Shown here one piece after another: positions 1 to 33,037 of a stretch of 36,144 nt of DNA. Source of the stretch: Bacilli bacterium. Its GTDB lineage: Bacteria; Bacillota_I; Bacilli_A; ML615J-28; CAG-698. Below the pieces are notes generated by a model that was given only the letters and a program-made list of their open reading frames with translations, was not told where the DNA came from and made no database searches. A program made the translations under genes and the position numbers. Every line of letters begins with the position of its first letter. The first letter of the stretch is position 1. Location of the stretch: NCBI GenBank assembly GCA_918272565.1, contig CAKJYW010000039.1:1-36144 (forward strand), written 5' to 3'.

Positions 1-762
1 AATTTAATTATTCAAGCTTATAAATTTAAAGGTTATGACAAAGGCGTTAATGGCATTTATATGCGATTAAAAAGAATGGGAATAACTTTTAATAAAAAGA
101 AAATAAGACGATTGATGCGTAAATTTGGGCTTAAATGTCCAATACGCAAGCCAAATCCCTATAAAAGAATGTTAAAAGCAATAGGCACAAATAATTACAC
201 TGAAAATATATTGAATCGTGAGTTTACTTTACATGGACCAAGATATGTATTACTCACAGATATTACATATTTCTTTTATGGTAATAATAGAACTAAAGCA
301 TATCTATCAGTTATAAAAGATGCTTATACTAAAGAGATACTATCATATGAATTAAGTGATAATCTTCAAGTTGATTTTGTTTTAAAGACTGTAAAGAGAT
401 TATTAAGAAAGCATCGAAAGGAATTAAATACTAATGTATTAATACATTCTGATCAGGGAGTTCATTATACATCATATAGTTATATAGAGCTTTTGGAAAA
501 AGAAGATATTAGAAGATCAATGTCACGAAGAGGAAACTGTTGGGATAACGCTCCTCAAGAATCTTTCTTTGGACATATGAAAGATGAAATAGAGTCAAAA
601 GTTAAAACATGTGAATCATATATAGGTTTAATTAAAATAATAGATAATTATATGAATTATTACAATAACTACCGTTATCAATGGAACTTAGCAAAATTAA
701 GTCCTAGTGAATATTATAAATACTGTATAACAGGCGAATATCCAGATGATTACAAAAAATAG
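1..762 (+). CDS. IS3-family transposase OrfB (5' partial)
   Basis: This is the catalytic subunit of an IS3-family element, which cuts and joins DNA ends during transposition. The frame is open from base 1; the first in-frame ATG at 61 is internal, because the 20 codons before it (NLIIQAYKFKGYDKGVNGIY) match the conserved region ahead of the rve domain. Counting from that ATG, the DDE triad is D67 in TDITYF, D131 in HSDQG and E167 in CWDNAPQESFFG, with 35 residues between the second D and the E, as expected for IS3. The C-terminal YNNYRYQWNLAKLSPSEY motif is intact and the stop is TAG at 760-762. The N-terminal half and the usual frameshifted orfA lie off the left edge. No disruption is visible in the part present. 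Confidence 0.93.
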   Translation, partial: NLIIQAYKFKGYDKGVNGIYMRLKRMGITFNKKKIRRLMRKFGLKCPIRKPNPYKRMLKAIGTNNYTENILNREFTLHGPRYVLLTDITYFFYGNNRTKAYLSVIKDAYTKEILSYELSDNLQVDFVLKTVKRLLRKHRKELNTNVLIHSDQGVHYTSYSYIELLEKEDIRRSMSRRGNCWDNAPQESFFGHMKDEIESKVKTCESYIGLIKIIDNYMNYYNNYRYQWNLAKLSPSEYYKYCITGEYPDDYKK

Positions 763-4955: not shown

Positions 4956-5381
4956 ATGAATAACGATTTAGAGAATTTATATAGACAAGTTATAATGGAT
5001 CATTATAAGAATCCAAGAAATAAAGGACTAAAAGGATATCCTCATATTCACTTAAAGAACCCTTCTTGTGGGGACGATATCACAATTGAAGCTGATATTA
5101 GTGAAGGAATTGTTAAAGAAGTGCGTCACGAAGGAAAGGGCTGCTCTATTTGTTGTTCTAGCGCTAGCGTTTTAACTGAAGTAGTTAAGGGTAAAAGTGT
5201 AGAAGAAGCAAAAGAGATGGTCGAAGCATATTTTAAGATGATGCGAGGAGAAGGATCAAGCGACGAACTTGAAGAAGCGCTAGTATATGAAGGCGTAAGT
5301 AAGTTCCCTGCTCGTATCAAGTGTGCCACAATCTCTTGGAAAGCTTTTGAAAGGCTTTTAAATGGTGAAAAAGATGAGTGA
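4956..5381 (+). CDS. sufU: Zinc-dependent sulfur acceptor SufU
   Basis: An IscU-like protein of the Bacillota SufU type, which takes persulfide sulfur from SufS and relays it to the SufBCD scaffold. C38 and D40 in SCGDD, C63 in CSICC and C123 in IKCATISW fit the four zinc/active-site positions of SufU, and an insertion between C63 and C123 (about residues 78-115) is typical of SufU rather than IscU. The N-terminal [17 protein letters not shown] motif is a strong family marker. The ATG at 4956 follows an AGGAGG site 8 bases after sufS. The end overlaps the start of sufB, so the two are probably translated together. Confidence 0.95.
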
Positions 5382-6810
5382 TAAAGTGGAAAATAAAGAT
5401 AAAAAGGTCGATAATAAGCAAATAGATGATATCATCGGTGATTATAAATATGGTTTTACTACTGATGTTAGTAATGTCTATGATACTGGTAAAGGTTTAA
5501 GCTTAGAAGTTGTTAAAAAGATAAGCGAATTTAAAGGCGAACCTGACTGGATGCGCGACTTTAGAATTAAAGCTTATAAGAAATTTGCTTCAATGAGTCA
5601 ACCTTCATTTGGTCCTAGTCTTGATTTTATCGATTTTGATGATTACACATATTACATCAAATCAAGTAAAGGCGTAGAAAATAAATGGGAAAATGTTCCT
5701 GATACTATTAAAGATACTTTTGATAAATTAGGAATACCTGAAGCCGAAAAGAAATATTTAGCCGGTGTATCAACACAATTTGAAAGTGAAGTAGTTTACC
5801 ATAATACGCTAGAAGAATTAAAGTCACTAGGAGTATTATTCTGTGATACTGATACTGCGGTTAAGCTTTATCCTGATATTGTTAAAGAATATTTTGGTAA
5901 AGTTGTTCCTTATACTGATAATAAATATGCAGCATTAAATAGTGCTGTTTGGAGTGGAGGATCATTTATCTATGTTCCTAAAGGTGTTAAGTTAGAAAAA
6001 CCGCTTCAATCATATTTTAGAATCAATTCAGAACAAATGGGACAATTTGAAAGAACATTGATAATTGTTGAAGACGGGGCAAGCCTAAATTATGTTGAAG
6101 GATGCACAGCTCCAATTTATTCAAAAGATTCACTTCACGCTGCTGTTGTGGAAATATATGTTAAAAAAGATGCATATTGTAGATATTCAACTGTTCAAAA
6201 CTGGAGTAATAATATTGTTAATTTAGTAACAAAAAGGGCATCAGTTTTGGACCGTGGTCATATGGAATGGATTGATGGAAATATTGGTTCAATGCTTAAT
6301 ATGAAATACCCTGCTTGTATTTTAGCTGGAGATGGTGCTAAAGGCACAACAATCTCTATCGCCTTTGCTGGTCACGGTCAATACCAAGATACAGGAGCTA
6401 AGATGATTCACTTAGCCCCTAATACAACAAGCACTATCGTATCTAAATCTATTTGTAGAGGCGGAGGTGTTGTTAACTACCGTGGTACTGTTAGACAAAG
6501 CAAGAAAGCAGTTGGTGCTAGAAGTCACATTGAGTGCGATACAATCATTTTAGATGGCATATCAAAAAGCGATACTATTCCATTCAATTTTGTTCAAAAT
6601 AACAAAGCAAGAATCGAACATGAAGCAACAGTATCAAAGGTAAGTGATGATGAACTATTCTATCTAATGAGCCGTGGCTTAACTGAAAGCCAAGCATTAG
6701 AGATGATTGTTATGGGATTTATTGAACCGTTCTCAAGAGAACTTCCAATGGAATATGCTATTGAACTTAATCAGTTAATCAAACTAGAAATGAATGGAGC
6801 TATCGGATGA
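5374..6810 (+). CDS. sufB: SUF scaffold subunit SufB
   Basis: Main scaffold protein on which new Fe-S clusters are built, together with SufC and SufD. The sequence is typical throughout: [10 protein letters not shown] near the N-terminus, [19 protein letters not shown] in the middle, and [12 protein letters not shown] with the conserved Cys near the end, then the [17 protein letters not shown] motif shared with SufD. I chose the ATG at 5374, which has GGTGA five bases upstream and overlaps the sufU stop by 8 bases. An in-frame ATG at 5362, behind AAAGG, is a fair alternative adding four residues. This is the last gene of the operon, and its stop lies within a terminator. Confidence 0.96.
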
Positions 6811-6828
6811 TAGTTCCTTTATTTTTTT
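6796..6828 (+). terminator. Terminator of the SUF operon
   Basis: GGAGCTATC (6796-6804) pairs with GATAGTTCC (6809-6817), nine pairs including one G-U, followed by TTTATTTTTTT. The stem spans the end of sufB. Confidence 0.85.
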
Positions 6829-6837
6829 GTTACTTTT

Positions 6838-6846
6838 TGGTATAAT
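6838..6846 (+). promoter_or_regulatory. Extended -10 promoter for the 6864 operon
   Basis: TGGTATAAT at 6838-6846 is a perfect extended -10 directly after the SUF terminator and 18 bases before the ATG at 6864. No clear -35. The transcript leader would be very short, starting close to the ribosome site AAAGGTGG (6851-6858). Confidence 0.55.
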
Positions 6847-6863
6847 AATTAAAGGTGGTTTTT

Positions 6864-7673
6864 ATGGCATACTTTAGTATTGAAAACTTAATAATTGATG
6901 ATATTAATTTCACATTTGATATCGATATGCATGAAGCTATTGCTTGTATCTTTGATAAGAAATTAGCAAGAAAGCTTTTTTTGGTATTAGCTGGAATTAA
7001 TAAAAACGAAGGTAATGTTAAAGTATTAAACGAAAATCCGTTTGATAATGATAATTATTTTAAAACACGTGCTTTAATGGACTTTAGTGAGAAATACCTA
7101 TCAACATTAAGAAAAGATGAAATAAGTAGCGCATTTTTAAATAAATTTAATAAAGATATCGATATCGATAGATTTATAAAAAACGTCAATGAATTTTCTT
7201 TAAGGAAAGAAGCAATATTTGATGTGAAATATACCTTCACTGATCTTGGTAACACTTTACTTAATCTATCTTTGTTTGATGCGCTTAATAGTAAAGTAGG
7301 GTTCTTGCTTGATATTTCTCATGGCGCAAATACGAAGGAATTAAAAGAGGTAGTTGAAACAAAACTTCTTAATAAAAGGTACGACGCTTTATTATGTCAC
7401 GCTTCAACTATCGATGCCGTATATAATTTTGATTCATTTTTATTTCTTTTTGGTAAAGAGATAATAAAGATAGGTGCTAAAGAAGATGTGTTATTATTTA
7501 ATAGGGCAAGTAACCTGCGTCATGTTATTTATAGTGATAATAAATATTCTATTTGTTTAAACAATTATACAAAAGAGAAATTACATGAATTGAGTAGGGA
7601 AAAACAAGAATATAAAAAAATGAATCTAGTTGAAGCACTTAAGATAATAGGTGAGAGCAATGAAAAAAAATAA
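6864..7673 (+). CDS. Degenerate ABC-ATPase-like protein lacking ATP-binding motifs
   Basis: A 269-residue protein with the layout of an ABC transporter ATPase but without its active site. SIENLIIDDINFTFDI matches the first strands, and VLAGINKNEGNVKVLNENPF (41-60) looks like the usual 'LLAGLxxPxxGxVxVxGxxPF' after a P-loop, but the P-loop position (about 29-37) reads IFDKKLARK with no GxxxxGKS. The signature position (about 123-130) reads YTFTDLGN instead of LSGGQ. Walker B survives only as VGFLLDIS (145-152), with Ile in place of the catalytic Glu. It probably cannot hydrolyse ATP. ATG 6864 is preferred to the GTG at 6855, because that GTG lies inside the ribosome site. It overlaps the next membrane gene by 14 bases. 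The ABC relationship is inferred by eye. Confidence 0.6.
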   Translation: MAYFSIENLIIDDINFTFDIDMHEAIACIFDKKLARKLFLVLAGINKNEGNVKVLNENPFDNDNYFKTRALMDFSEKYLSTLRKDEISSAFLNKFNKDIDIDRFIKNVNEFSLRKEAIFDVKYTFTDLGNTLLNLSLFDALNSKVGFLLDISHGANTKELKEVVETKLLNKRYDALLCHASTIDAVYNFDSFLFLFGKEIIKIGAKEDVLLFNRASNLRHVIYSDNKYSICLNNYTKEKLHELSREKQEYKKMNLVEALKIIGESNEKK

Positions 7674-8244
7674 GGCGTTAATTGAGATAGCATTTATATT
7701 ACTAATTGTCTTTTTTCTTCTAGCTTTAAGTTTAAACATCTTAAAGGATAGTGAAGTGTTTAATCCTAATGTAGCTATTAAGTTATTATATCTAGCGATT
7801 TGTTTTTGTGGGATGTATTATTTTTATAGTGTGGGTAGTAAAATAAGGCTAAGTTTATGCTTTGGTGTTACTAGAAAAGAAATCTTTAAAAATTCAATTA
7901 AAAACGGCATTCTAATTGGAGTTTTAGTTTTTGTATTAGAATTAATTACATATCTATTTTATTTAGTATTTAACAGTAAAGGTATTACATTAAAGAGATT
8001 GTTTCTAGAATCTGATATGTTACTCCTTTGTACAATCTATTTTGCTAGTTGCTTTATTGGGTTAAATGCTTCATTAATTAATATTAATAAAGTAGTAAAA
8101 AACATCTTGATGATTTTGTTGTTTATGGCAATATCACTACTTATTGCAACACAAAATTTATATATTGCTTTGTTACAGGGAGTTGTTGATTTAGCATTAT
8201 TTATAATAGCAAAAGATATGTTTTATAATAAGAGTTTAGATTAG
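7660..8244 (+). CDS. Polytopic membrane protein, ABC-2 permease-like
   Basis: A 194-residue protein with about six hydrophobic segments (near residues 8-26, 38-56, 80-101, 115-133, 141-160 and 162-182) and few long soluble parts. The short motif LCFGVTRKEIFKNS in the first cytoplasmic loop resembles the 'FGxTRKEFF' loop common in ABC-2-type permeases of Bacillota, where it contacts the ATPase. Together with the overlapping upstream ATPase-like gene this suggests a two-gene transporter-like unit. I start it at ATG 7660 behind GGTGAG; an in-frame GTG at 7651 lies within that ribosome site. Substrate unknown. Confidence 0.65.
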   Translation: MKKNKALIEIAFILLIVFFLLALSLNILKDSEVFNPNVAIKLLYLAICFCGMYYFYSVGSKIRLSLCFGVTRKEIFKNSIKNGILIGVLVFVLELITYLFYLVFNSKGITLKRLFLESDMLLLCTIYFASCFIGLNASLININKVVKNILMILLFMAISLLIATQNLYIALLQGVVDLALFIIAKDMFYNKSLD

Positions 8245-8252
8245 AGGAAATT

Positions 8253-9575
8253 ATGAAAGATTATTTGATTAATTTTTTAAAAGAGAATAATATCGATTTG
8301 AGTGATGAAGTGGTGACTGCTGCGGTATCTACTGGTCTTGATTCGATGAGTTTGCTTCATAGTTTAATTGAAGCGAAGGAAGAGGTCAACTTTAAAATCG
8401 TAGTTTGTCACGTCAATCACAATAAAAGAGCTGAATCTAAAGAAGAAGAGGAATTTATTTTAGACTTCTGCATGAAAAAAGGTATAGAGTGCTTTGTTAA
8501 GTCAATTGATTTTAAGGACACTACTAATTTCCAAGAAGTTGCAAGAGGCAAAAGGTATGAATTTTTCTATGATGTGATGGATAAGGTCGGAAGTAAGTTT
8601 TTATTTTTAGCGCATCACTTAGATGATTTAGCTGAAACTATCATCATGAGAATTATTAGAGGCACTAGCCTAAATGGGTATAGCGGTTTTCATGGGGTAA
8701 GTAGTTTTAATAATCATATTATCGTTAGACCTTTTATTAATCTAAGTAAAGAAGACTTATGTAATTATCAAAAAGAAAAAGGGTTTAAGTATTATAACGA
8801 TTCATCTAATGATCTAGACGATTATACTAGAAATAAGATTAGACACCTTGTTTTAAAAGAACTTAAAAAAATCGATAATAATGTTTTAGAAAAATTCAGT
8901 GATTTTAGCTACGACATGGATGAAAGTAGTAAGATTGTAATGAGCAAAGTTCATGAAATCATCGATGAAGTTATAAATGTTGATAGTGAAAGAGTTAGTT
9001 TTAATAGAAACGATTTATTAAAATATTCACCATTTCTAGTTAGAGAGGTTTTGTTTGAAGTATTAAAGCCTTACAAATTATCTAAGAAGAACATTAGTGA
9101 AATCATTAAATGGATAGAGTCTAATAAAGCTAATTTTAGAAATAGTTATAAAAACATCGAATTTATTAAAGAATATGATTTAATTACAATAGCTAAGATT
9201 AGTGAAAAAAGTAATGATAGTTATAGCGAAGTAGTAATTGATGGGTTAGGTGAGTTTAGACTAAATGACAATATTTTGATAAATGTATCACTTAATTTAT
9301 CTGGTCGTAATGCAAATTCTAATGAACTATGCTATAATATAAAAAAATTGCCAATTACTATAAGAAATAGAGTTCCTGGAGACAAGATTAAGTTGTCTTA
9401 TGGCTACAAGAAAGTTAAAGACTTGCTTATTAACGAAAAGGTCGAGCTTTCAAGAAGAGAAAAGATCTTAGTAGCATCAAAAGATGATGAAGTTTTATGT
9501 ATCTTTGGACTTAAGAAAAGTAGTAATTTAAGTAAAGATGACAATGACATTATTATTAGAATCGAGGAAAGATAA
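8253..9575 (+). CDS. tilS: tRNA(Ile)-lysidine synthase TilS
   Basis: Adds lysine to C34 of the CAU-anticodon tRNA-Ile, so that it reads AUA instead of AUG; essential in most bacteria. The PP-loop ATP-binding motif is at 25-31 but reads VSTGLDS where most members have SGGxDS, a mild departure. LAHHLDDLAETIIMRIIRGTSLNGYSGF (about 122-149) is the strongly conserved second motif, and the C-terminal lysine/tRNA-binding domain (about 360-440: IRNRVPGDKIKL, KKVKDLLINEKV) is complete. The length of 440 is normal. ATG 8253 follows AGAGGAAA. It heads the widespread tilS-hpt-ftsH cluster and shares one base with hpt. Confidence 0.94.
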   Translation: MKDYLINFLKENNIDLSDEVVTAAVSTGLDSMSLLHSLIEAKEEVNFKIVVCHVNHNKRAESKEEEEFILDFCMKKGIECFVKSIDFKDTTNFQEVARGKRYEFFYDVMDKVGSKFLFLAHHLDDLAETIIMRIIRGTSLNGYSGFHGVSSFNNHIIVRPFINLSKEDLCNYQKEKGFKYYNDSSNDLDDYTRNKIRHLVLKELKKIDNNVLEKFSDFSYDMDESSKIVMSKVHEIIDEVINVDSERVSFNRNDLLKYSPFLVREVLFEVLKPYKLSKKNISEIIKWIESNKANFRNSYKNIEFIKEYDLITIAKISEKSNDSYSEVVIDGLGEFRLNDNILINVSLNLSGRNANSNELCYNIKKLPITIRNRVPGDKIKLSYGYKKVKDLLINEKVELSRREKILVASKDDEVLCIFGLKKSSNLSKDDNDIIIRIEER

Positions 9576-14048: not shown

Positions 14049-17000
14049 ATGAAGAAAATCAAGTTAGTTATAATTATTCTATCTATCCTTTGCTTTTTAA
14101 CATTTTTTGGATGTGAGAGTAAAGAACCAGAAAAGGAAAAAGAACCAGATATTGTTAACGAGGATCCTCAAAAAGAAGATGATGAAAAAGAAAAAGAGCC
14201 AGAGAAACCTGTTATTGAATCATATAAAGTTGAATATGATTTAGGTGGTGGTGCTTTCTTGAAAGATTACCCTACATCGTTTGAGAGTGGTAGTGAATTA
14301 ATAATTCCTAATCCAGAAAAAGAGGGATTTGTTTTTTGGGGGTGGAGAATCTTTGGTTTAAGTAATTTCTTTGATTGTGAAGGTAAGGAATCATTTACTA
14401 TTCCTAGTTCACTTACAAGTAGCGATATTGGACTAAAAGCTGTTTGGAAAGAAATTAAAATAGAAGTTAAATATACTATCACTTATGAAAACTTAGGTGA
14501 AGCTAATTTACCTGGTGATGTTATATTTGAATATAGTGAAGGAACATATTATAAATTACCTAGTATTTATCAAGATGATTTTAACTTTTTAGGATGGAGC
14601 CTTGATAGTGAAGGAAAGAATATAGTCACTGAAATAACTAGTGACACTAAAGGTGATTTAGTTTTATATGCTAATTGGGAATATGTATTTGTATCATATA
14701 GTGTTGAATATGATCTTGATGGTGGAGAGTTTTTAAGTGAAGTAAAGTATGAATATAACGAAGGAGAAACTTTATATTTACCTAAAGTTAAAAAAGATGG
14801 ATATCGTTTTTTAGGCTGGACAGAAGAAAAAGGAAGTAAGAACTATATCAATGACATAGTTTATGTAACTGGCAATTTGAAGTTTTATGCTAACTTTGAG
14901 AAAGTTGTTGAAGGGGAGTATTTGATTAGTTATGTTTATGAAGATGGACACTACACTCACCACACAGCCACATCACCAGAAGAGTTTATTGAACAATTTT
15001 GGAAAGAGTTTTATGAGTGGTGTGATGTTACTATTACTTTAGATAAGTTTATTGAAGCTAATATGACAAGCTGGAAAGCTGGTAATACTAGTAAATATAA
15101 TCTATATTTACAAAGTGGTAAGGGTGAAGTTGATGATAGATATTTCATAAATGCTAAAGGCAATGAAGCCTGGATGAAGTGGATGGATATCTTTGATGAA
15201 CAGGTTACTAAAATCAATAAAGATCAAACAGCTTGGAATAGTACATATGTTGGACTACTTAGACTATATAATTATTTAAATGGAAGAACTTCTAGTTATT
15301 GGAAAACTGAATATGTTAAAGCAATATATGAAGGTTATCCAATTCCTAATTATTTAATTACTAAATATAATACAAAAGAGAATGTCGAATTAATTGGAAT
15401 AGAAGTAGATGATGGAAGAGATTTCTTAGGATGGGTGAAAGAAGATGGAATCAAGGTCACTAATACTAAGTCATTAACTGGTGATACCACTTTATATGCA
15501 TCTTGGAGTGCATCTACTCCTGTTACTAGCTTCAATGTAACTAATATTACTACCAAAATGTATCGATTTGATACATTACAACTTGAATGGATATTTAATC
15601 CTCTTGATGCCACAAATCAAAAACTAAAGTTTATTTCAAGTGATAATAGTGTTATTAGTGTAGACGAAGAAGGAAAACTTACAGCTTTGAAAGTTGGTAG
15701 TGCTAAAGTCACTGTTGTTTGTCTTGATAATAATGATTTCAATGTTGAGATGAATATCGATGTTGTGATTGATCCGTTTATTGATATTAAAGTAAATGGT
15801 TCTAATGTAATAGGAGTTGGTGAAGAACTTAAATTATCTTCTAAGCTTTATGGCGAAAATGGAAATATAGAATATCGAAGTTTAGATAATAGTATTGTAA
15901 AAGTTGAAAGTGGAAAGATAATTGGAGTAAGTAATGGCTATACAAAAGTAGAAGCCTTTGTTAGTGGTAAAGAGAATATCAAATTTACATTTGGTGTTAC
16001 TGTAAGTAGTAAGGAAGATAGCTTCTTTAAAGTTATTAATAATAGTCATAATGCTAATATTCACGTAACAAGAAAACTTCCGGTTGCCTACGTTTATGAT
16101 ACTGATGTATTTTGTAGTGCAAGTGATTTATTATTTAATTATAAATATGAAGTAGATCAAAGCTACGAAGCGTTCCAAGCAGAGATTGATAATAATCCAA
16201 ATCAAGATAAAAACCATGGTGGCAAAAAGACAAGTAACGAATTTATTTGTGTCCACTATACTGCAGGGGCTAGTAGTGGCTCAACTGGTCGTGCTAATGC
16301 TAATTATTTTGCAACCGGTGGTAGTGCTGGTAAGTCATCAATTCACTATACTACTGGTAATGATGGAATCTACCATATCTTAGATGATACGATGGTAGCA
16401 TGGCATGCAGGGGACGGAACTGGTGTTAAGTTTGAGTGGATTCCAACTGGTGTTAAGACTAACACTAATGATAAGCCTACTTTTGGTGTTGTTAAAAACA
16501 CTAAGAGTTCTACAGGTTACTATTTCACTGTCAACGGCGTTTTAACAAGCATTGAAGTTCCAATCGATGGTAAAAGTAGTAGTGGGGCTCCAAAGACTTT
16601 AAGCGACCCTCTAAATGCATTTACCTATTTTGGACCAAGCTACAAGATAGAAAATGGTGAAATCTATATGGGAACTCCATGGGCTTGCTTCACTCAAGTT
16701 TATGGTGGAGTAATTGGCACACGTGGTGGCAATAACAATTCCATTGGAATTGAAACTGCTTGTAATAAGGGTAGTGACTTATGGCTTACTTATCAAATGA
16801 CTGCTGAGCTTGTGGCTAGACTTATGGATGAGTGGAATTTAGACATCAGTAGAGTTGTTGGTCACAACGCATTTACTGGTAAAGATTGTCCTCAAACATT
16901 GCTTTATAATAACGGCGAACTATGGGAATTATTTATTGAATGTGTTCAAGCTGAATTTGATTTGTATGAGGCAATGACTAAAAGTGGCAACTACACTATC

Positions 17001-17168
17001 AGTGCAAAATCAAGTGATCCAAGTATTCTAAGCGATAATGGCAGAGTCGTTAGAGTTCCTAACTACACAACAAGTGTAGAATACACTGTCACTATTAAGA
17101 ATAATTCAACCGGTGAAGAAAGAAGCCAAACATATTGTTCTATTATTAATGGAGCATATACTGAATAA
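14049..17168 (+). CDS. Multidomain lipoprotein with N-acetylmuramoyl-L-alanine amidase domain
   Basis: A 1039-residue cell-surface protein. Signal peptide 1-21, lipobox FFGC (Cys 22), Glu/Lys/Pro linker to about 55. Three Flg_new (InlB B-type) repeats lie at about 57-133, 141-210 and 216-283, each ending in the (F/L)xGW...Y motif, and a fourth partial unit is at about 445-486. In between (290-440) is a Trp-rich helical stretch that I do not recognise. Two Ig-like BIG2-type domains follow at about 490-575 and 577-652. Residues about 728-965 form an amidase_2 domain, with likely zinc ligands H736 (CVHYTAG), H939 (VGHNAFTG) and C947 (DC). Roughly 90 residues (800-895) are inserted before the NSIGIETA motif. 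It presumably cleaves the peptide from MurNAc in peptidoglycan. Ribosome site GAGGTGA; probably cotranscribed with the gene before it. Confidence 0.85.
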   Translation: MKKIKLVIIILSILCFLTFFGCESKEPEKEKEPDIVNEDPQKEDDEKEKEPEKPVIESYKVEYDLGGGAFLKDYPTSFESGSELIIPNPEKEGFVFWGWRIFGLSNFFDCEGKESFTIPSSLTSSDIGLKAVWKEIKIEVKYTITYENLGEANLPGDVIFEYSEGTYYKLPSIYQDDFNFLGWSLDSEGKNIVTEITSDTKGDLVLYANWEYVFVSYSVEYDLDGGEFLSEVKYEYNEGETLYLPKVKKDGYRFLGWTEEKGSKNYINDIVYVTGNLKFYANFEKVVEGEYLISYVYEDGHYTHHTATSPEEFIEQFWKEFYEWCDVTITLDKFIEANMTSWKAGNTSKYNLYLQSGKGEVDDRYFINAKGNEAWMKWMDIFDEQVTKINKDQTAWNSTYVGLLRLYNYLNGRTSSYWKTEYVKAIYEGYPIPNYLITKYNTKENVELIGIEVDDGRDFLGWVKEDGIKVTNTKSLTGDTTLYASWSASTPVTSFNVTNITTKMYRFDTLQLEWIFNPLDATNQKLKFISSDNSVISVDEEGKLTALKVGSAKVTVVCLDNNDFNVEMNIDVVIDPFIDIKVNGSNVIGVGEELKLSSKLYGENGNIEYRSLDNSIVKVESGKIIGVSNGYTKVEAFVSGKENIKFTFGVTVSSKEDSFFKVINNSHNANIHVTRKLPVAYVYDTDVFCSASDLLFNYKYEVDQSYEAFQAEIDNNPNQDKNHGGKKTSNEFICVHYTAGASSGSTGRANANYFATGGSAGKSSIHYTTGNDGIYHILDDTMVAWHAGDGTGVKFEWIPTGVKTNTNDKPTFGVVKNTKSSTGYYFTVNGVLTSIEVPIDGKSSSGAPKTLSDPLNAFTYFGPSYKIENGEIYMGTPWACFTQVYGGVIGTRGGNNNSIGIETACNKGSDLWLTYQMTAELVARLMDEWNLDISRVVGHNAFTGKDCPQTLLYNNGELWELFIECVQAEFDLYEAMTKSGNYTISAKSSDPSILSDNGRVVRVPNYTTSVEYTVTIKNNSTGEERSQTYCSIINGAYTE

Positions 17169-20592: not shown

Positions 20593-20627
20593 AAAAGATT
20601 CGTTGATATGTATCAACGAATTTTTTT
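20590..20627. terminator. Bidirectional terminator
   Basis: ATTCGTTGATA (20598-20608) pairs with TATCAACGAAT (20611-20621), flanked by an A-run at 20590-20596 and a T-run at 20621-20627. It can end both the plus-strand unit and the minus-strand lipoprotein gene whose stop is at 20626. Confidence 0.92.
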
Positions 20628-23373
20628 AATCTAGGTTATTTAGTTTTTCTAGTAAATAGTTTTTAATACCATCTATTTCAATTCTATTTATATATGTTTT
20701 TATCTTAGCTAATTTGTATGAAGATAATGCTTCAACAGTACTAGAAAAGTCATAATCATATTTAATAGAATAATAATTAATTAACATATCTATCAATTCA
20801 TCTATTATTATTTTAACTTTTTCTTCGCTACTAGTTTTACTACTAATAAATGGTGAGTGGTGAGTAGAAGCTAAGATATCATTAAATAATGGTCCATTTG
20901 TATAATAATAACTAGATGAATATAGAACATAGCCATCATGACGCAAGGCTTCATCAATTTCATATAGAGTAGTAAGAACACTTTCAGACATGATTCCCAG
21001 GTTAATTTGAGGGATGTTATCTTCACTAAAATAAGTATTAGCATTATTTATAAATTCATCTACACTTTCTGTGTAATTCATTTTTTCAATTCTATCTAAA
21101 AGTCCTAATTCTAACCACTTCTTGTAATCTTGCAAGAAGCTTTTTTTAGCATTATCGTATTTTTTTAGTACAGCAGCACTAATAATGATATTAGGGTTGA
21201 CTTCTTTGATTCCTTCTTTAGTTCTAGTTAGGAAATTTATTAATTCTGTTTCTTTAAATTCAAGCCACATAGCTCTAACATCTAAATCAGTTAGAATTAA
21301 TTCTTTTAAGTCCCCACTAATATTATATTTTTCTTTGAATTTATTAATAGAATACTCTGTCCAACCTGGGTCAATGATTTGAGTTTTATCTTTAATTTCA
21401 CCTTTAAAAGAATAAAGGTTAGTAGCGGGATATCTAATGATATCGTACTCGATGAAATCAAAGTCGTAATATGTTGCTACATCAATATAAAATTGATATT
21501 TTAAGTCTTGAACTTTGTCATTACAAATATCTAGGTAATAGTTATTCCCTTTTGCTCTTTCTCCACTATAATTTCTTTGGTATAAAGATCTATCAACATT
21601 TTTCATTTCTAAGATTTTTGCAGAAAACGTTCCATCAATTATTCCTATTGATATACCTTCATTGTGTGCTAGTTCAATTAAACATTTCAAATAATCGTGA
21701 CCAAATTCGTTGTAATCGTAATTTTCTAGTTCAGGATATGTTAAAAAATCAGTGGAATTAGCTAAAAGAGTATAATAACCATACCAAGGAGATACTATTA
21801 GCATATTTATTCCTGCATCCTTAAAAGACTTAATTGTTGCTTTTATACTATCGTATGAGGTGTCATCGAATGTTTTAAATGGGTAATACCAAACTCCTTT
21901 TGTTTTATTAATGTTATTATCTACAATATTAGCTTTTAGTAAAGCGTATAAATCATCAAGTTCGCTTAAAGTCTTAGTCATCTTTTTAACAATATACAAG
22001 TTAATATTATCAGTGAAAATGAAATCTAACTTTTTATCTATTTTTTGAATAATTGAATCGATATATGAATAATCATGAGGAATACTTGCTTCTTCAGAGC
22101 TATTTACTTCATTAATGAGGGTGTTTCTAATGTCTAAGTAAGACATTTGACTAGCATAGATGAAATCTTTATAAACAGAGAAACCAACATCGTTAAAGAC
22201 GATTTTATCGTATTTTGATATGTTTTCTTGTAAGAAATCATTTGCACTTAGGTGACCACTTAAGATATAGCCATCAGTAGGTAAATCGACTAATGTTCCT
22301 AAATCGATAACTACTCCATCTTTGTTTAGTGCAACCTCAAATCCTGAAGAGTTTCTTTCAACAAGGTTATCTTTGTTATATAGAACCATTGTGTCTCGTG
22401 CCCTAACTCCACCATCATAGACTACATTTGTAAAGTCAATGTAATGGATATAGTTGGTTTTAGTTATGGTAGTATTATTTGTTTCATAATGTTTACCTAA
22501 ATAGTTATAGGAATGATCATGATAGAAGATATTTTTAGAATTATCTTGTGGGATTGTAGATAATATATCTAAGATATAATCAAAAATTGCTTCATCCCCA
22601 TTATATAAAGAATCTAGTGAATCTTCTAAATCATTTAAGATTCTAACGTAAGAGTTATAAGTTTTAATATCAGTTATATCATCAAGTGATAATATCACTT
22701 CATATAGTTTAATAAAGATTGAGTTAGATTTAGTGATTGTTCTATTTTTATAAATAAATAATTTATTAAAAGAATAGATTACTAAATCACCAATATCAAT
22801 TAAAGCTATTTTTTCTTTTCCTTCACCATTGGCAGATACTACCATACCACCTTCTGGAACATCAACATTGATCCCTTTTTCGATTGCTATACCATCACTA
22901 TTAATAGCAATTTCATTTCCATAGATATTTGTTTTAACGAACCTGTCGTTATCGTAAACAATAATTCTATCAGATGAACGAGCAACACCATATAGAACAT
23001 GGTCTATTAATAAGTCATATGAAAGATAATCGATAGAGCAGATTGTTTGATCTAAATATTTGTTTATATCAATATTTAGTTTTATCTTTTCGGTTTCTTC
23101 TATTTCTGGCTCAGTTGGTTCATCTAGCTCATCCGTAGGATTGCTATTAGGATCATCTGAAGGATTATCAGGGTCATCCGAAGGATTAACCTTAGGATTG
23201 CCGTTTGGATCATCTGGATTATCCGAAGGATTATCAGGGTCATCTTCTTTAGGATCTTCAGTAACATCCTCTATGTTATCTTCTTTATTTGGTTTATCAT
23301 CTTGTCTATTTGTTTTACAAGAAGTAAAAATAAAAAGAAGAAGGATTATTAATAATATATTAATCTTTTTCAT
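20626..23373 (-). CDS. GHL10-like glycosidase lipoprotein with duplicated N-terminal module
   Basis: A 915-residue surface lipoprotein. Signal peptide 1-18, lipobox FTSC (Cys 19), then an Asp/Pro/Asn-rich linker to about 95 made of imperfect repeats. Residues about 129-290 and 322-485 are two copies of one module, each opening with R(S/A)xDxxVxYxxDxxVxxNxxGxE(I/V)AxNxDG and continuing to VDxPxxGxxxS and an aligned DIGDLVIY / DVGFSVY segment. From about 491 (GVWYYPFKTF, GINMLIVSPWYGYY, NYYLDICNDKVQ, DFIEYDIIRYPA) it matches the glycosyl-hydrolase-like 10 (YngK, DUF187-type) barrel. Its substrate is probably a cell-wall or dietary glycan, but this is not determined. Ribosome site AGAGG. A single-gene unit between two terminators. 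Confidence 0.8.
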   Translation of the reverse strand: MKKINILLIILLLFIFTSCKTNRQDDKPNKEDNIEDVTEDPKEDDPDNPSDNPDDPNGNPKVNPSDDPDNPSDDPNSNPTDELDEPTEPEIEETEKIKLNIDINKYLDQTICSIDYLSYDLLIDHVLYGVARSSDRIIVYDNDRFVKTNIYGNEIAINSDGIAIEKGINVDVPEGGMVVSANGEGKEKIALIDIGDLVIYSFNKLFIYKNRTITKSNSIFIKLYEVILSLDDITDIKTYNSYVRILNDLEDSLDSLYNGDEAIFDYILDILSTIPQDNSKNIFYHDHSYNYLGKHYETNNTTITKTNYIHYIDFTNVVYDGGVRARDTMVLYNKDNLVERNSSGFEVALNKDGVVIDLGTLVDLPTDGYILSGHLSANDFLQENISKYDKIVFNDVGFSVYKDFIYASQMSYLDIRNTLINEVNSSEEASIPHDYSYIDSIIQKIDKKLDFIFTDNINLYIVKKMTKTLSELDDLYALLKANIVDNNINKTKGVWYYPFKTFDDTSYDSIKATIKSFKDAGINMLIVSPWYGYYTLLANSTDFLTYPELENYDYNEFGHDYLKCLIELAHNEGISIGIIDGTFSAKILEMKNVDRSLYQRNYSGERAKGNNYYLDICNDKVQDLKYQFYIDVATYYDFDFIEYDIIRYPATNLYSFKGEIKDKTQIIDPGWTEYSINKFKEKYNISGDLKELILTDLDVRAMWLEFKETELINFLTRTKEGIKEVNPNIIISAAVLKKYDNAKKSFLQDYKKWLELGLLDRIEKMNYTESVDEFINNANTYFSEDNIPQINLGIMSESVLTTLYEIDEALRHDGYVLYSSSYYYTNGPLFNDILASTHHSPFISSKTSSEEKVKIIIDELIDMLINYYSIKYDYDFSSTVEALSSYKLAKIKTYINRIEIDGIKNYLLEKLNNLD
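23159..23244 (-). repeat. Repeats in linker-coding DNA
   Basis: A 20-base direct repeat (23159-23178 and 23225-23244) lies 66 bases apart, i.e. 22 codons. It sits within further imperfect units that encode the Asp-Pro-Asn-Pro-Ser linker of the GHL10 lipoprotein. In-frame length change by slippage or recombination is plausible. Confidence 0.8.
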
Positions 23374-27796: not shown

Positions 27797-27820
27797 AGTG
27801 TGAAAAAAGGAGTGAAACTA

Positions 27821-28090
27821 ATGACTACAAATTTGAATATTAGAACAGAAAAAGAGATAAAAGAAAAATCAGATAGAATATTTGCTGAACTGGGTTTGAC
27901 AATGACATCTGCTATTAATATGTTTTTAAGAGCTACAATTAGGGAAAATGGAATACCATTTAGTTTAAAACTTGATGTTCCAAATGAAACTACGAAAGAA
28001 GCAATTGAAGAGGGAAGAAAAAAGGCTTATGATAAAAATGAAAAAAGCTTTTCTTCAATTGAGGATTTGAGGAAGGAACTTGACATTTGA
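27821..28090 (+). CDS. RelB/DinJ-family antitoxin
   Basis: An 89-residue antitoxin. The ribbon-helix-helix N-terminus TNLNIRTEKEIKEKSDRIFAELGLTMTSAINMFLRATIRENGIPF (3-47) is the standard RelB/DinJ pattern. The C-terminal part (48-89), rich in Glu/Lys, would wrap and block the toxin. I use ATG 27821, 8 bases after AAAGGAG; the GTG at 27800 lies upstream of that site. The gene overlaps the toxin by 4 bases. The complex should repress the promoter just upstream. Confidence 0.9.
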   Translation: MTTNLNIRTEKEIKEKSDRIFAELGLTMTSAINMFLRATIRENGIPFSLKLDVPNETTKEAIEEGRKKAYDKNEKSFSSIEDLRKELDI

Positions 28091-28368
28091 CGAAATACGC
28101 AGTTAGATTTACAAACCGCTTCAAAAAAGATTTAAAACTTGCTAAAAAGCAGAAAAGGAATACCAATAATCTTGTAGAAGTGATTGATAAACTAGCTTGT
28201 GGGGATATATTAGAAGAAAGATATCATGACCATGTTTTAAGTGGCAATTACGCAGGAGCAAGAGAATGTCATATTGAACCGGATTGGTTACTTATATATG
28301 AAACGTTTGATGATGTTCTTGTGTTGTTGCTTTATAGACTTGGATCACATTCTGAATTATTTAAATGA
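28087..28368 (+). CDS. YafQ-type mRNA interferase toxin
   Basis: A ribosome-dependent endoribonuclease toxin of the RelE/YafQ superfamily, 93 residues. The residues matching the catalytic set of E. coli YafQ are in place: H49 in HDHVLSG, H62 and D66 in ECHIEPDWLLIYE, and H88 in RLGSHSELFK. The toxin therefore looks intact. It starts with TTG at 28087, which overlaps the antitoxin stop (TTGA) and gives weak, coupled translation, a normal way to keep toxin below antitoxin. The module lies in a strain-variable-looking spot between DUF368 and lysS. Confidence 0.9.
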   Translation: MTKYAVRFTNRFKKDLKLAKKQKRNTNNLVEVIDKLACGDILEERYHDHVLSGNYAGARECHIEPDWLLIYETFDDVLVLLLYRLGSHSELFK

Positions 28369-30009: not shown

Positions 30010-31680
30010 TTATTTATTAAATCCTTCTTTGATTGATAGAAGTAGCTCATCTGTTAGATAGTCGCATCCCCACTCCCAATACATTAAACCTCCCATACCT
30101 TCTTCCATGCAATATTTGCATTTAGCAATTAGGCTTCTTGGGTTATCAAATGATATGAATACTGTTCCATCAGTTGAAAGTAAGTATGGCTCTTCGCATC
30201 TAGTATCGTAATATAAGTTGTAATCAGGGTTATTCAGATAGTTTTTGATTAAATTGTTATAAAGGATTGTTCCACTTGCTTTAAATGCTCCATCTGTTAG
30301 GACTTGCTTTTGACCATAGAAAGCAGCTCCCCAAATCATTTTGCTATTTGGTACACCCTTATCTTGATAGATTTTAGCACTTTCTGCAATCGAGCAGCTA
30401 TCCATTGTTCTACCAACTTTATTTACTTTATCATTGTATGAAGTATTTTTATATAGCGCTGTGTGATAATAGCCGCTATGAGAAACCATACTATAAGTCA
30501 TAATGTTAATGTAATCTAAATAGTTGATTGAATTTTCAATATCAAATCTACCACTACTCCACTTACCACCAGCTACAGCTGCTGTTAATAAGTGGTTAGG
30601 GTTATTAGCTTTAATAGCACTATATACTTCTTTACAAAGAAGTGTGAAATTTTGTGACTCACTTGATTTTGGTGTTTCCCAGTCAAAGTCGATTCCATCT
30701 AGACCTAATTCGTTTATTAGATTAACTAGATTCCTTGCTGCAGCTTTACGTGTAGCTTCACTACTAGCAACAGTCGAGAAGGTTTCAGCTTTATTAAAGG
30801 AAGCTAAAACGTAGATTCCTTTTTCTTTACATTTAGGAATTATGTAATTTAACATCTTCGATTTGATTGGATTATTAATCGAGCCATCTGCGTTAAATGT
30901 CAAGAAGCAACAAAAGACGATATCATTTACTTCAAAGAAAGCATCAGTTACTTTATCAAAGTTACGATAGATGTAGCCAGCTATGATATTCTTTAATTCT
31001 TTATATCCTTTTACCCTGACTTCTAGTTCAACTGTTTTCTTTTGGTTATTTAAATTGATCATAGCAGTTAACCTCACAACTACTTCTTTATAATTAATTG
31101 TATATTTACCTTCTTTATTTAATCTTAAAGGATTAGAACTACTCCAAGAGATTGAAGCGTCATTATATGAAGTTATTAGTTCTATATCTTCACTAACTAA
31201 AATATCACTATATTTATTAATTAAGAATTCAGCTACTTCGTCAATTTCTCTTGTATCTTCTTTATATATCGCTTTATCTACTCTATATTTTTCACCATTA
31301 ATTTCTTTATATTCAGTTACTACTTCAATAAAGATATATCCGTCGTACTCTGGTGGTGCCATTTCTAATATTTCACTATCAGAATAAACATCAAATTCAG
31401 CGACTAATTCTTCATTAAGTCCATATAAAGTGTAGTGATATAGAAGATAAGGTTCAGTGTTTTCTTCTTCCTTTTCATCAGGAGGAGTTTCTTCTTCACC
31501 ACTAGAAGGATTATCTATTTCTTCAGTTTCTTTATTGTCTTCTTCTTTATCTTTATCATCAATTACAACTGGAGTAGGTGGATCGTCCGTATTTTTATTA
31601 TCAGTTGGTGTAACCTCTTTACATGAAGTTAAAAGAAGTAAGAAAAGAAGAAACAAACAAACAAATATATATCTTTTCAT
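30010..31680 (-). CDS. GH18-family glycosidase lipoprotein
   Basis: A 556-residue surface lipoprotein with signal peptide 1-19 and lipobox LTSC (Cys 20). An acidic Asp/Glu/Pro linker runs to about 76. A small unidentified beta domain (78-142) is followed by an atrophied Ig-like domain (about 143-225, ISWSSSNPLRLNKEGKYTI). The GH18 barrel runs from about 230 to the end, with the catalytic motif DGIDFDWE at 328-335; E335 is the proton donor. GH18 enzymes cleave chitin or related beta-1,4-GlcNAc polymers, including endo-acting forms on N-glycans and peptidoglycan-like substrates; which applies here is open. ATG 31680 is chosen for its lipoprotein signal and GAGGTAA site; the frame extends upstream to 31818, but that part overlaps the neighbouring gene. 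Confidence 0.88.
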   Translation of the reverse strand: MKRYIFVCLFLLFLLLLTSCKEVTPTDNKNTDDPPTPVVIDDKDKEEDNKETEEIDNPSSGEEETPPDEKEEENTEPYLLYHYTLYGLNEELVAEFDVYSDSEILEMAPPEYDGYIFIEVVTEYKEINGEKYRVDKAIYKEDTREIDEVAEFLINKYSDILVSEDIELITSYNDASISWSSSNPLRLNKEGKYTINYKEVVVRLTAMINLNNQKKTVELEVRVKGYKELKNIIAGYIYRNFDKVTDAFFEVNDIVFCCFLTFNADGSINNPIKSKMLNYIIPKCKEKGIYVLASFNKAETFSTVASSEATRKAAARNLVNLINELGLDGIDFDWETPKSSESQNFTLLCKEVYSAIKANNPNHLLTAAVAGGKWSSGRFDIENSINYLDYINIMTYSMVSHSGYYHTALYKNTSYNDKVNKVGRTMDSCSIAESAKIYQDKGVPNSKMIWGAAFYGQKQVLTDGAFKASGTILYNNLIKNYLNNPDYNLYYDTRCEEPYLLSTDGTVFISFDNPRSLIAKCKYCMEEGMGGLMYWEWGCDYLTDELLLSIKEGFNK

Positions 31681-31703
31681 ACAAATTACCTCATAACTAT
31701 AAT

Positions 31704-31735
31704 AACAAAAAACGGAACATTTTTCAATGTTCCTA
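31704..31735 (-). terminator. Terminator of acyltransferase gene
   Basis: GGAACATT (31714-31721) pairs with AATGTTCC (31726-31733). Read on the minus strand the T-run GTTTTTTG follows. It touches the stop codon. Confidence 0.85.
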
Positions 31736-33037
31736 TTTGTCAGTTTCTTCATACATCCAACTATTCCATGGAAAATTCTTCCAAGTGTTAACGTGAAGAC
31801 GATGAAGTTCTTCAACACTTACTAATACTTTACCATTAGCTCCAGGGCGTTTAGGGTAGAATTCATACCATTCTCCATCAACATACCAGCCGAAGTGAGT
31901 TGTGTCAGTTACGATTGCGGGTGAGAAGACAGTTTTATAATCTAGGGTGAAATTAAATTCTTTACCATCTTTTGTACCATTATAGTGGACACCTTCGTGA
32001 TCAATAGTTAAAGTTCCATGACCACAGATTTCAGTTGTCTTTTTATCTTTTAACCATTTGTAGTCAGGAATATTACCTAAATCAACTTCTTCAGTGAATG
32101 AATAGTTTGGATTTTTTCTTATTTCTTTAATAGTTTCAACTCTTTCCCATTCAACCCATTTAGATGGAGTGTATGGGAAATATGAATTTTCAGTTGGTAC
32201 GAACTCATAATAGTCGTTAATTTCTGCTTTGTTCCCGCAAGCTTCACACCAAATAGTGTTATTATCAACTCTCATTGTTAGTTCCTTACCACACTTAGGG
32301 CACTTATAACACAAAGTATCAAGGTTAGTAGCCATTCCACCTTTGTTCTTCCATTTTTGTGGATTAGCTTTTTGCCAATCGTATTCGTCGTGTTTAAATG
32401 CTAAATTGATTTTATCTTCAATTTCTTGTGCTGATAGTTTTTCTAAATCCTCGCTAGAAAACATTAGCTTAAGTGTAGCATAAGTATTAGCGTAACGCTC
32501 ATCTAAGCACATTTTGGTTGTTGTTAAGTATTGTCCACGCAATTCTAAGAAATACACAGGGATTTTATGATGCTTAAACAAATGACCAGTTCCTGGAATG
32601 ATTGGTTGGTTAGTTCCATATATTGAACTCATTCCTTCGGGAGCCAAACAGATGACACCATTTTGTTTGATTATTGATTTCATTCCTTTTATTGATATTA
32701 AATCATTAGAATAAATCTTTTTAGGAATGACATTATTAAGTTTAAAAACAGTATGTAAATGACTTCTAAAGAATTCATTGTATCCTGCAACAATATTAAT
32801 TCTTCTAGGGTATGCAGCTTCTAAGCAGTAAGCATGATCTACACGAGATAGATGGTTAAAGATTAAAAAGCATGGGCCTTTACAATCATTTATGTCATCT
32901 ATTATTTCAATATGTGGTTTGTATTTCTTAATAATGAATAATTTATCTAAAAAATAATATAACCAATAATAAAATCTATTTGTTATTTTAAATTTTCTTT
33001 GAGTTAGTTTTTGTTTGTTTGTTAGTTTTTCTTTCAT
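31733..33037 (-). CDS. PlsC-like acyltransferase fused to a zinc ribbon
   Basis: A 434-residue protein. Residues about 40-230 form a PlsC/LPLAT-type acyltransferase: NHLSRVD at 61-67 is the NHx4D catalytic motif (with His and Asp kept), and LAPEGMSS at 131-138 is the Glu-Gly substrate motif. Such enzymes add an acyl chain to lysophosphatidic acid or related lipids at the membrane. Residues 243-270 (CYKCPKCG...WCEACGNK) carry two CxxC pairs, C246/C249 and C264/C267, as in a zinc ribbon. The 160-residue C-terminal part (aromatic-rich) is unknown to me. PlsC proteins normally end after the acyltransferase domain, so this is a fusion. The N-terminus is Lys/Arg/Gln-rich and may lie on the membrane surface. 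Ribosome site AAAGGAGG. Confidence 0.85.
   Translation of the reverse strand: MKEKLTNKQKLTQRKFKITNRFYYWLYYFLDKLFIIKKYKPHIEIIDDINDCKGPCFLIFNHLSRVDHAYCLEAAYPRRINIVAGYNEFFRSHLHTVFKLNNVIPKKIYSNDLISIKGMKSIIKQNGVICLAPEGMSSIYGTNQPIIPGTGHLFKHHKIPVYFLELRGQYLTTTKMCLDERYANTYATLKLMFSSEDLEKLSAQEIEDKINLAFKHDEYDWQKANPQKWKNKGGMATNLDTLCYKCPKCGKELTMRVDNNTIWCEACGNKAEINDYYEFVPTENSYFPYTPSKWVEWERVETIKEIRKNPNYSFTEEVDLGNIPDYKWLKDKKTTEICGHGTLTIDHEGVHYNGTKDGKEFNFTLDYKTVFSPAIVTDTTHFGWYVDGEWYEFYPKRPGANGKVLVSVEELHRLHVNTWKNFPWNSWMYEETDK

Follow-up and report, generated by a model that had tools for sequence, protein, structure and literature searches.

In PmtABCD-like exporters two ATPases are paired with two permeases, and in ABC-2 permeases the first coupling helix sits at the loop after helix 2. 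To our knowledge, at least one working ATP site remains in every known degenerate-site ABC transporter. In such a site the Walker A motif and the signature have to come from different subunits; exporters with a degenerate site usually keep one working site, and their Walker A Lys is usually retained or replaced by Arg (PMC7756269). ABC pairs of the FtsEX type can act on envelope enzymes without transport, with live ATPases (PMC11627006). Here we describe a pair of genes, A and B, from gut Bacilli, in which the ATPase-like member has lost all residues of this machinery and has nonetheless been conserved. Our searches of the literature, which covered open-access but not subscription sources, returned no described family of this kind. 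The reading that we prefer, and to which we give about an even chance, is that A and B form a pseudo-ABC membrane complex that is conserved and works without nucleotides, probably as an accessory in the assembly of a lipoteichoic-type polymer. The pair was studied in a window, i.e. the whole 36,144-nucleotide stretch of contig CAKJYW010000039.1 from a Bacilli bacterium (genome G000; G- and L-numbers are our labels for genomes and loci), whose features are collected in Table 1.

Table 1. Features of the A-B locus and of the remainder of the window; residue numbers refer to the protein named in the row.
Feature	Position	Strand	Basis or remark
IS3-type transposase ORF (rve integrase core)	61..762		at the window edge
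sufB	5362..6810	+	ORF; end gene of the sufCDSUB operon, neighbour 5' of A, judged outside the A-B unit
Terminator-like hairpin and T tract, end of sufB	6796..6817	+	1 found vs 0.3 expected
Extended -10, TGGTATAAT	6838..6846	+	consensus match only, putative
Shine-Dalgarno-like, AAAGGTGG	6851..6858	+	sequence
ORF A, pseudo-ABC ATPase, 269 aa (P0001)	6864..7673	+	ATG 6864, stop 7671-7673
Walker A position, residues 30-37 of A	6951..6974	+	no GxxGxGK[ST]; Lys replaced by Ala
FDNDNYFKTR, residues 60-69 of A	7041..7070	+	best-conserved family segment, just before the former Q-loop
DLGNT, residues 127-131 of A, LSGGQ position	7242..7256	+	profile alignment
VGFLLDIS, residues 145-152 of A, Walker B position	7296..7319	+	IIxNPT in the family
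ORF B, small all-helical ABC-2-like membrane protein, 194 aa (P0002)	7660..8244	+	ATG 7660
FGVTRKEIF, residues 68-76 of B, helix 2-3 loop	7861..7887	+	coupling-helix-like; alignment, model
tilS	8253..9575	+	directly 3' of B in the window
Predicted lipoprotein	14049..17168		Listeria-Bacteroides repeats, Big_2, N-acetylmuramoyl-L-alanine amidase domain (Amidase_2, 3e-19)
Predicted secreted glycosidase	20626..23373	-	GHL10-like
Type II toxin-antitoxin pair	27818..28368		RelB antitoxin and YafQ toxin
Predicted secreted glycosidase	30010..31818	-	GH18 with EndoS-type TIM-barrel match

Taken as single sequences, the window copies of A and B match nothing in Pfam, NCBIfam or the PDB, so that the ABC assignment of A depends on an alignment of its family (n = 20), in which the window copy is joined by 19 orthologues, 19-31% identical to it and all encoded in the family of Bacilli to which the window belongs. 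Among the PDB sequences, the profile made from this alignment significantly matches ABC ATPases only (best matches: 7kyo, 8.1e-6; EcfA2, 9.3e-6; 2pjz, 1.7e-4), and it does so in register across the P-loop, the signature and Walker B. When the profile was compared by hhalign with ABC ATPases that are intact, most of them encoded in the same genome, the E-value was 1.6e-8 over 200 columns. The AlphaFold2 model of A (pLDDT 91.7, pTM 0.88) has 851 Foldseek matches in the PDB at E <= 0.001, the best 50 of which are all entries of ABC proteins, with NosF at the top (E = 9e-9) and PmtC and YbbA also matched. For two members of the family the best curated NCBIfam match is PmtA (E = 0.0044). Matches of single members to V-ATPase_H_C, Lysis_col and similar models look like unrelated one-offs. 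The initial annotation had read an ABC layout from the 269-residue protein and had named structure prediction and profile-profile comparison as ways to check it; the layout is real, and both the predicted fold of A alone and the profile comparison turned out to be ABC-like, so that the non-ABC fold named there as a refuting outcome did not arise. Profile and predicted model together show the ABC ancestry and fold of A.

The former motifs were located by aligning the family profile with profiles of real ABC ATPases rather than on an experimental structure. Placed in this way, the Walker A Lys, the Walker B Asp, the catalytic Glu, the Q-loop Gln and the H-loop His are each found in 0/20 aligned sequences, and the window copy has A35, L149, D150, F74 and S181 in their respective places. 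The position of the Walker A Lys is occupied by V or I in 15 sequences and by a hydrophobic residue in 17 of the 20, neither of the two inner Gly residues of the P-loop is present at its aligned column (0/20), and the catalytic Glu has given way to Asn (14 sequences), His (4), Gln (1) or Asp (1, the window copy). At the position of LSGGQ the family has xxGNT (Gly in 20/20, Asn in 16/20, Thr in 15/20), with the second Gly of the signature absent throughout (0/20). The lack of Walker A, LSGGQ and catalytic Glu, originally noticed in one sequence, is therefore a property of the whole family, and VGFLLDIS indeed falls on the Walker B position. As the catalytic residues are missing from 20/20 sequences, their loss must be old and must have preceded the radiation of the family. 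Other positions are strictly kept: G44, D61, F66, R69, E116 and G129 are invariant, with three of them (D61, F66 and R69, each 20/20) in the FDNDNYFKTR segment, and Y65, Y78, R114, F125, P151 and I230 are nearly so, the P151 position being Ile in the window copy. We consider it well supported by these alignments that A is an ABC-derived pseudo-ATPase, and we do not file it as an ABC ATPase, because the tests for catalytic residues found none.

The model of B is all-helical (pLDDT 82.9). In an alignment of 18 B proteins conservation is highest in the loop that follows helix 2, with the consensus FGxTRKxIY (R72 in 18/18, G69 in 17/18); the FGVTRKE motif that had been pointed out in the permease-like gene is part of this segment. 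The top Foldseek matches of the model are the ABC-2 proteins NosY, PmtD and ABCG and an LptFG chain, all of them non-significant (best E = 0.23), and the profile of B has no sequence match in the PDB and no relevant match in Pfam. B is thus likely to be an ABC-2 permease, on a weaker resemblance than that of A to the ABC ATPases.

The A gene is present in 22/28 genomes of the family of gut Bacilli to which the window belongs, and no confident copy turned up in the order's sister family or in the rest of a 296-genome sample of the class. Two weak matches outside the family, in G041 (E = 3.9e-6) and G214 (3e-7), were left out of this count; the former was rejected as a copy of A, since it is an intact ABC ATPase with its motifs kept. 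Named relatives that carry A include Mollicutes bacterium Phil14 and an uncultured Bacilli bacterium from sample Lapin-026 (three-sequence alignment, contig search). Wherever the contig continues, A and B are adjacent, in constant order and mostly with overlaps of 4-14 bp (14 bp in the window), and the frames are open in all members of A that were found. In genus g13 the copies of A are more divergent, and at one locus of this genus (L042, in G015) the pair is eroding, with A of about 229 aa, B of about 137 aa and the coupling motif altered to FGLAQSEIRK.

Upstream of A lies a terminator-like hairpin, missing from the description in the initial annotation, which closes the suf operon; a comparable hairpin with T tract recurs between sufB and A among the relatives (15 loci examined). 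The extended -10, the ribosome site and the 14-base overlap described earlier are all in place, and a TATAAT-like box followed by a Shine-Dalgarno sequence recurs in the intergenic sequences between sufB and A of the relatives examined, which, together with the hairpin, makes A-B look like the start of a transcription unit of its own. A promoter scan based on the -35 element did not list this extended -10 promoter, and promoter-like sites are not in excess in this region. The linkage of sufB and A is also loose, as an ABC transporter and a methyltransferase lie between them at L068 and lpdA takes the place of sufB in G011. The idea of A-B as a part of the suf operon was rejected in view of the terminator, the promoter-like region of the pair and the varying upstream neighbours in some of the relatives.

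In 15 genomes, that of the window not among them, a gene for an LtaS-like protein directly follows B (gap of -14 to +22 bp), and the genes 5' of A vary in these loci (sufB, lpdA, a methyltransferase behind an inserted ABC transporter, or a glycosidase). A Sulfatase domain (1.7e-31) was identified in the LtaS-like protein, for which lipoteichoic acid synthase is the top NCBIfam match (3e-43, under the strict cut-off of that model). The order in the intact cluster is sufB-A-B-ltaS-hydrolase-murF-ddl-tilS-hpt-ftsH, and the window and genus g13 have A-B-tilS-hpt-ftsH, from which the ancestral ltaS-hydrolase-murF-ddl block is gone, so that the adjacency of B and tilS is what remains after its loss. 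The location next to sufB-tilS that had been taken as the reference for the pair is thus true of the window but derived, as most relatives have ltaS, the hydrolase, murF and ddl between B and tilS. Across the 28 genomes the presence of A is not significantly associated with that of LtaS (Fisher p = 0.14): A occurs without an LtaS match in the window genome, in two g13 genomes and in the incomplete G018, and LtaS occurs without A in three genomes. The gene order beside ltaS could be an inherited adjacency.

The window genome (completeness 97.4%) appears to have lost more than the ltaS block. We found in it no sulfatase-domain protein, no match to the MurF of the cluster, no transpeptidase or penicillin-binding protein and no FtsW/RodA; there is a single weak match to a Mur-ligase domain (2.2e-10), plausibly FolC. 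Since control genomes were matched in the same family-model searches, these absences are meaningful for a near-complete draft. Of the 28 family genomes, several of which are incomplete, 11 have transpeptidases and 17 do not, and both states occur within the genus of the window. The 11 genomes with transpeptidases imply that the genes for wall synthesis were lost within the family, and the distribution suggests that wall loss was repeated there; repeated loss of peptidoglycan has been published for related orders (PMC10868615). A is present in 11/11 of the genomes with transpeptidases and in 11/17 of those without a transpeptidase match, which rules out that A-B is tied to peptidoglycan itself. 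As a separate observation, the lipoprotein with the amidase domain (Table 1) sits in this genome without markers of peptidoglycan synthesis; it possibly acts on the walls of other bacteria.

The rates of evolution of A were compared with those of SufB. The A/SufB distance ratio is highest in the window genome (8.0), G015 (7.7) and G024 (7.2), all without an LtaS match; next comes G018 (6.6), also without a match, in an 83% complete genome where the contig ends after A, and all other genomes fall between 4.3 and 6.3. G015 and G024 are one lineage, hence these values represent two or three events at most. Among the control genes of the window genome, the rate of hpt is raised as well and that of ftsH slightly, and B is not accelerated where LtaS was lost. 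The window copy of A is 34% identical to its congeners, which share 53% among themselves; it keeps 11 of the 12 invariant or near-invariant residues, and of the variable columns it matches only about one in five to one in four. For congeneric pairs of A that are more than 50% identical, pN/pS is 0.24-0.55, a range that is indicative only, with synonymous sites near saturation. The A family is thus maintained; constraint is looser on the window copy, which is nevertheless intact. The initial annotation had described the pair as maintained rather than dying: this holds for the family, with its 20 open frames, its catalytic residues absent throughout and its constant A-B order, but less well for the window, in which A evolves fastest relative to SufB and LtaS has been lost. 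The lack of stop codons, which had been cited as a sign of selection, is a weak argument from a single genome, and it is the relatives that carry it; frameshift decay, proposed as the observation that would speak against maintenance, was not seen in any of them.

We propose that A and B go back to the ATPase and the permease, respectively, of what was once an ABC-2 transporter, with the PmtA/YtrB/DrrA-like class as its nearest kin. Every motif involved in the handling of ATP would have been lost in the common ancestor of a single family of gut Bacilli, with A and B remaining a bound pair. A may dock on the cytoplasmic coupling loop of B (FGxTRK) with its FDNxxYFxxR segment and the face of its helical domain, giving a membrane complex that is independent of nucleotides and that most likely acts as an accessory, scaffold or regulator of polyglycerol-phosphate or lipoteichoic-type assembly by the LtaS-like enzyme encoded downstream. 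In the window genome, which lacks LtaS and the tested markers of peptidoglycan synthesis, the pair is still there, with A evolving faster. The loss of the catalytic residues across the family, the conservation of the pair and its operon structure are observations; from the operon coupling, from the conserved candidates for an interface, from the disappearance of all ATP-related residues and from the faster evolution of A where LtaS is missing, we infer that A and B form a complex, that nucleotides are not bound and that the pair is linked to LtaS. The non-significant co-occurrence of A and LtaS, the heritability of the adjacency, the unresponsive rate of B, the share that hpt and, slightly, ftsH have in the acceleration seen in the window genome, and the non-significant fold matches of B count against this model. 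The more ambitious version of it, that a whole ABC-2 transporter was turned into a nucleotide-independent complex dedicated to lipoteichoic-type synthesis and kept through repeated loss of the peptidoglycan wall, we put forward tentatively, as a possibility rather than as an expectation.

The family genomes also encode a second, better conserved family of degenerate ABC ATPases ('MSVLVCEN...'), which we call A' (G000:C38:28903-29775, locus L063; also L045, L046 and L048-L067). Where present in the family, A' is 46-73% identical to the copy in G005. Its members often keep the Walker A Lys, but the Ser/Thr that should come next is Glu or Asp (GKSDSGKE/D). They have no LSGGQ, and most have lost the catalytic Glu; the copy in the window genome retains GKSNSGKS and FDEA. 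In some genomes a small membrane gene lies 3' of A'.

The main rival to our reading is a mixed ABC complex, in which A and B would assemble with an ATPase encoded elsewhere, A' being the obvious candidate. The two-ATPase, two-permease composition of PmtABCD-like exporters is what such a complex would resemble, an alignment of A with A' extends over 249 columns and takes in the C-terminal region (E = 3.6e-7), and A' is found in 22/22 genomes with A and is missing from 4/6 without it (Fisher p = 0.0007, phylogeny not controlled). However, an ATP site would need Walker A from one subunit and the signature from the other (PMC7756269), and A can offer neither; A' lacks LSGGQ, and most of its members have Glu or Asp after the Walker A Lys or no Lys at all, which leaves no canonical site between A and A'. 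In addition, the A' locus is unlinked to A, and the membrane gene that adjoins A' in some genomes is its own. We regard the mixed complex as unlikely, if still the strongest of the alternatives.

LtaS needs lipid anchors on the outer leaflet of the membrane, and this requirement fits a different alternative, namely that B, with A as a structural lid, allows the ATP-independent passage of a lipid-linked precursor such as the glycolipid anchor of LTA, as a facilitator, channel or scramblase. The tendency of B towards an ABC-2-like fold and the retention of the ABC fold by A are compatible with this idea. On the other hand, B shows little conservation in its membrane helices, apart from the coupling loop, and we identified in B neither a substrate-like pocket nor a conserved polar residue, so we hold such passage to be decidedly unlikely.

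The possibility that A and B are decaying relics of a lost transporter that have so far escaped deletion, at least in the window genome, draws on the disappearance of ltaS, murF, the penicillin-binding proteins and FtsW/RodA from that genome, on the top A/SufB ratio and low congeneric identity of its A, and on the divergent copies in g13, shortened in G015. It is at odds with the open frames in all members, with the near-invariant residues that the window copy still keeps, with the pN/pS values well below 1 in congeneric pairs and with the timing of the changes, as the catalytic motifs disappeared before the radiation (20/20) and other residues have remained invariant since; decay strikes us as very unlikely. 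Least probable of all, and hardly credible, is a remodelled pocket in which A would still bind a nucleotide or some other ligand and so switch B. The family-specific conserved replacements (xxGNT for LSGGQ, xNPT for DEPT) could indicate a reshaped site instead of random loss, but the Lys has disappeared along with the Gly residues inside the P-loop, with a hydrophobic residue at the Lys position in 17/20, which leaves no phosphate-binding loop.

Returning to the nucleotide-independent complex, the significance of the pair lies in the history of the one ATPase that the locus encodes: after losing its full set of catalytic residues in a common ancestor, it was conserved across a bacterial family. 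Its permease-like partner was kept with it and is best conserved in the loop to which A would bind. If the pair is truly ATP-free, it separates the structural role of an ABC complex from its role in the hydrolysis of ATP. The operon with ltaS, together with survival in the absence of genes for peptidoglycan synthesis, provides a testable link to the building of anionic polymers on a bare membrane.

Among the known systems, the A-B pair resembles the ABC-2 exporters PmtABCD, YtrBC and NosFY in the fold of A (NosF, PmtC), the fold tendency of B (NosY, PmtD), the ATPase-then-permease gene order with an overlap, and the C-terminal extension; it differs from them in that A keeps no residue for the binding or hydrolysis of ATP and in that B, at about 180-220 aa, is the shorter protein and lacks significant sequence matches. 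We know of no ABC ancestry for CozEa and CozEb of Staphylococcus aureus. Compared by function only, these membrane accessories of LTA synthesis provide a precedent for the role that we propose for A-B (PMC11237490). FtsEX (e.g. PMC11627006) and YbbAP-TesA (PMC12646458) are, as we propose for A-B, membrane ABC pairs that act through an envelope enzyme instead of only transporting a substrate, but FtsE and YbbA are active ATPases, FtsX and YbbP are type VII permeases, and a large extracytoplasmic domain is missing from B. Finally, A shares with the degenerate-site exporters TAP, CFTR, TM287/288 and ABCG5/G8 the loss of the catalytic Glu, of the signature or of H-loop residues from a domain that retains the ABC shape (PMC7756269); however, those exporters keep one canonical site, whereas A has lost every motif and is the only ATPase of its locus.
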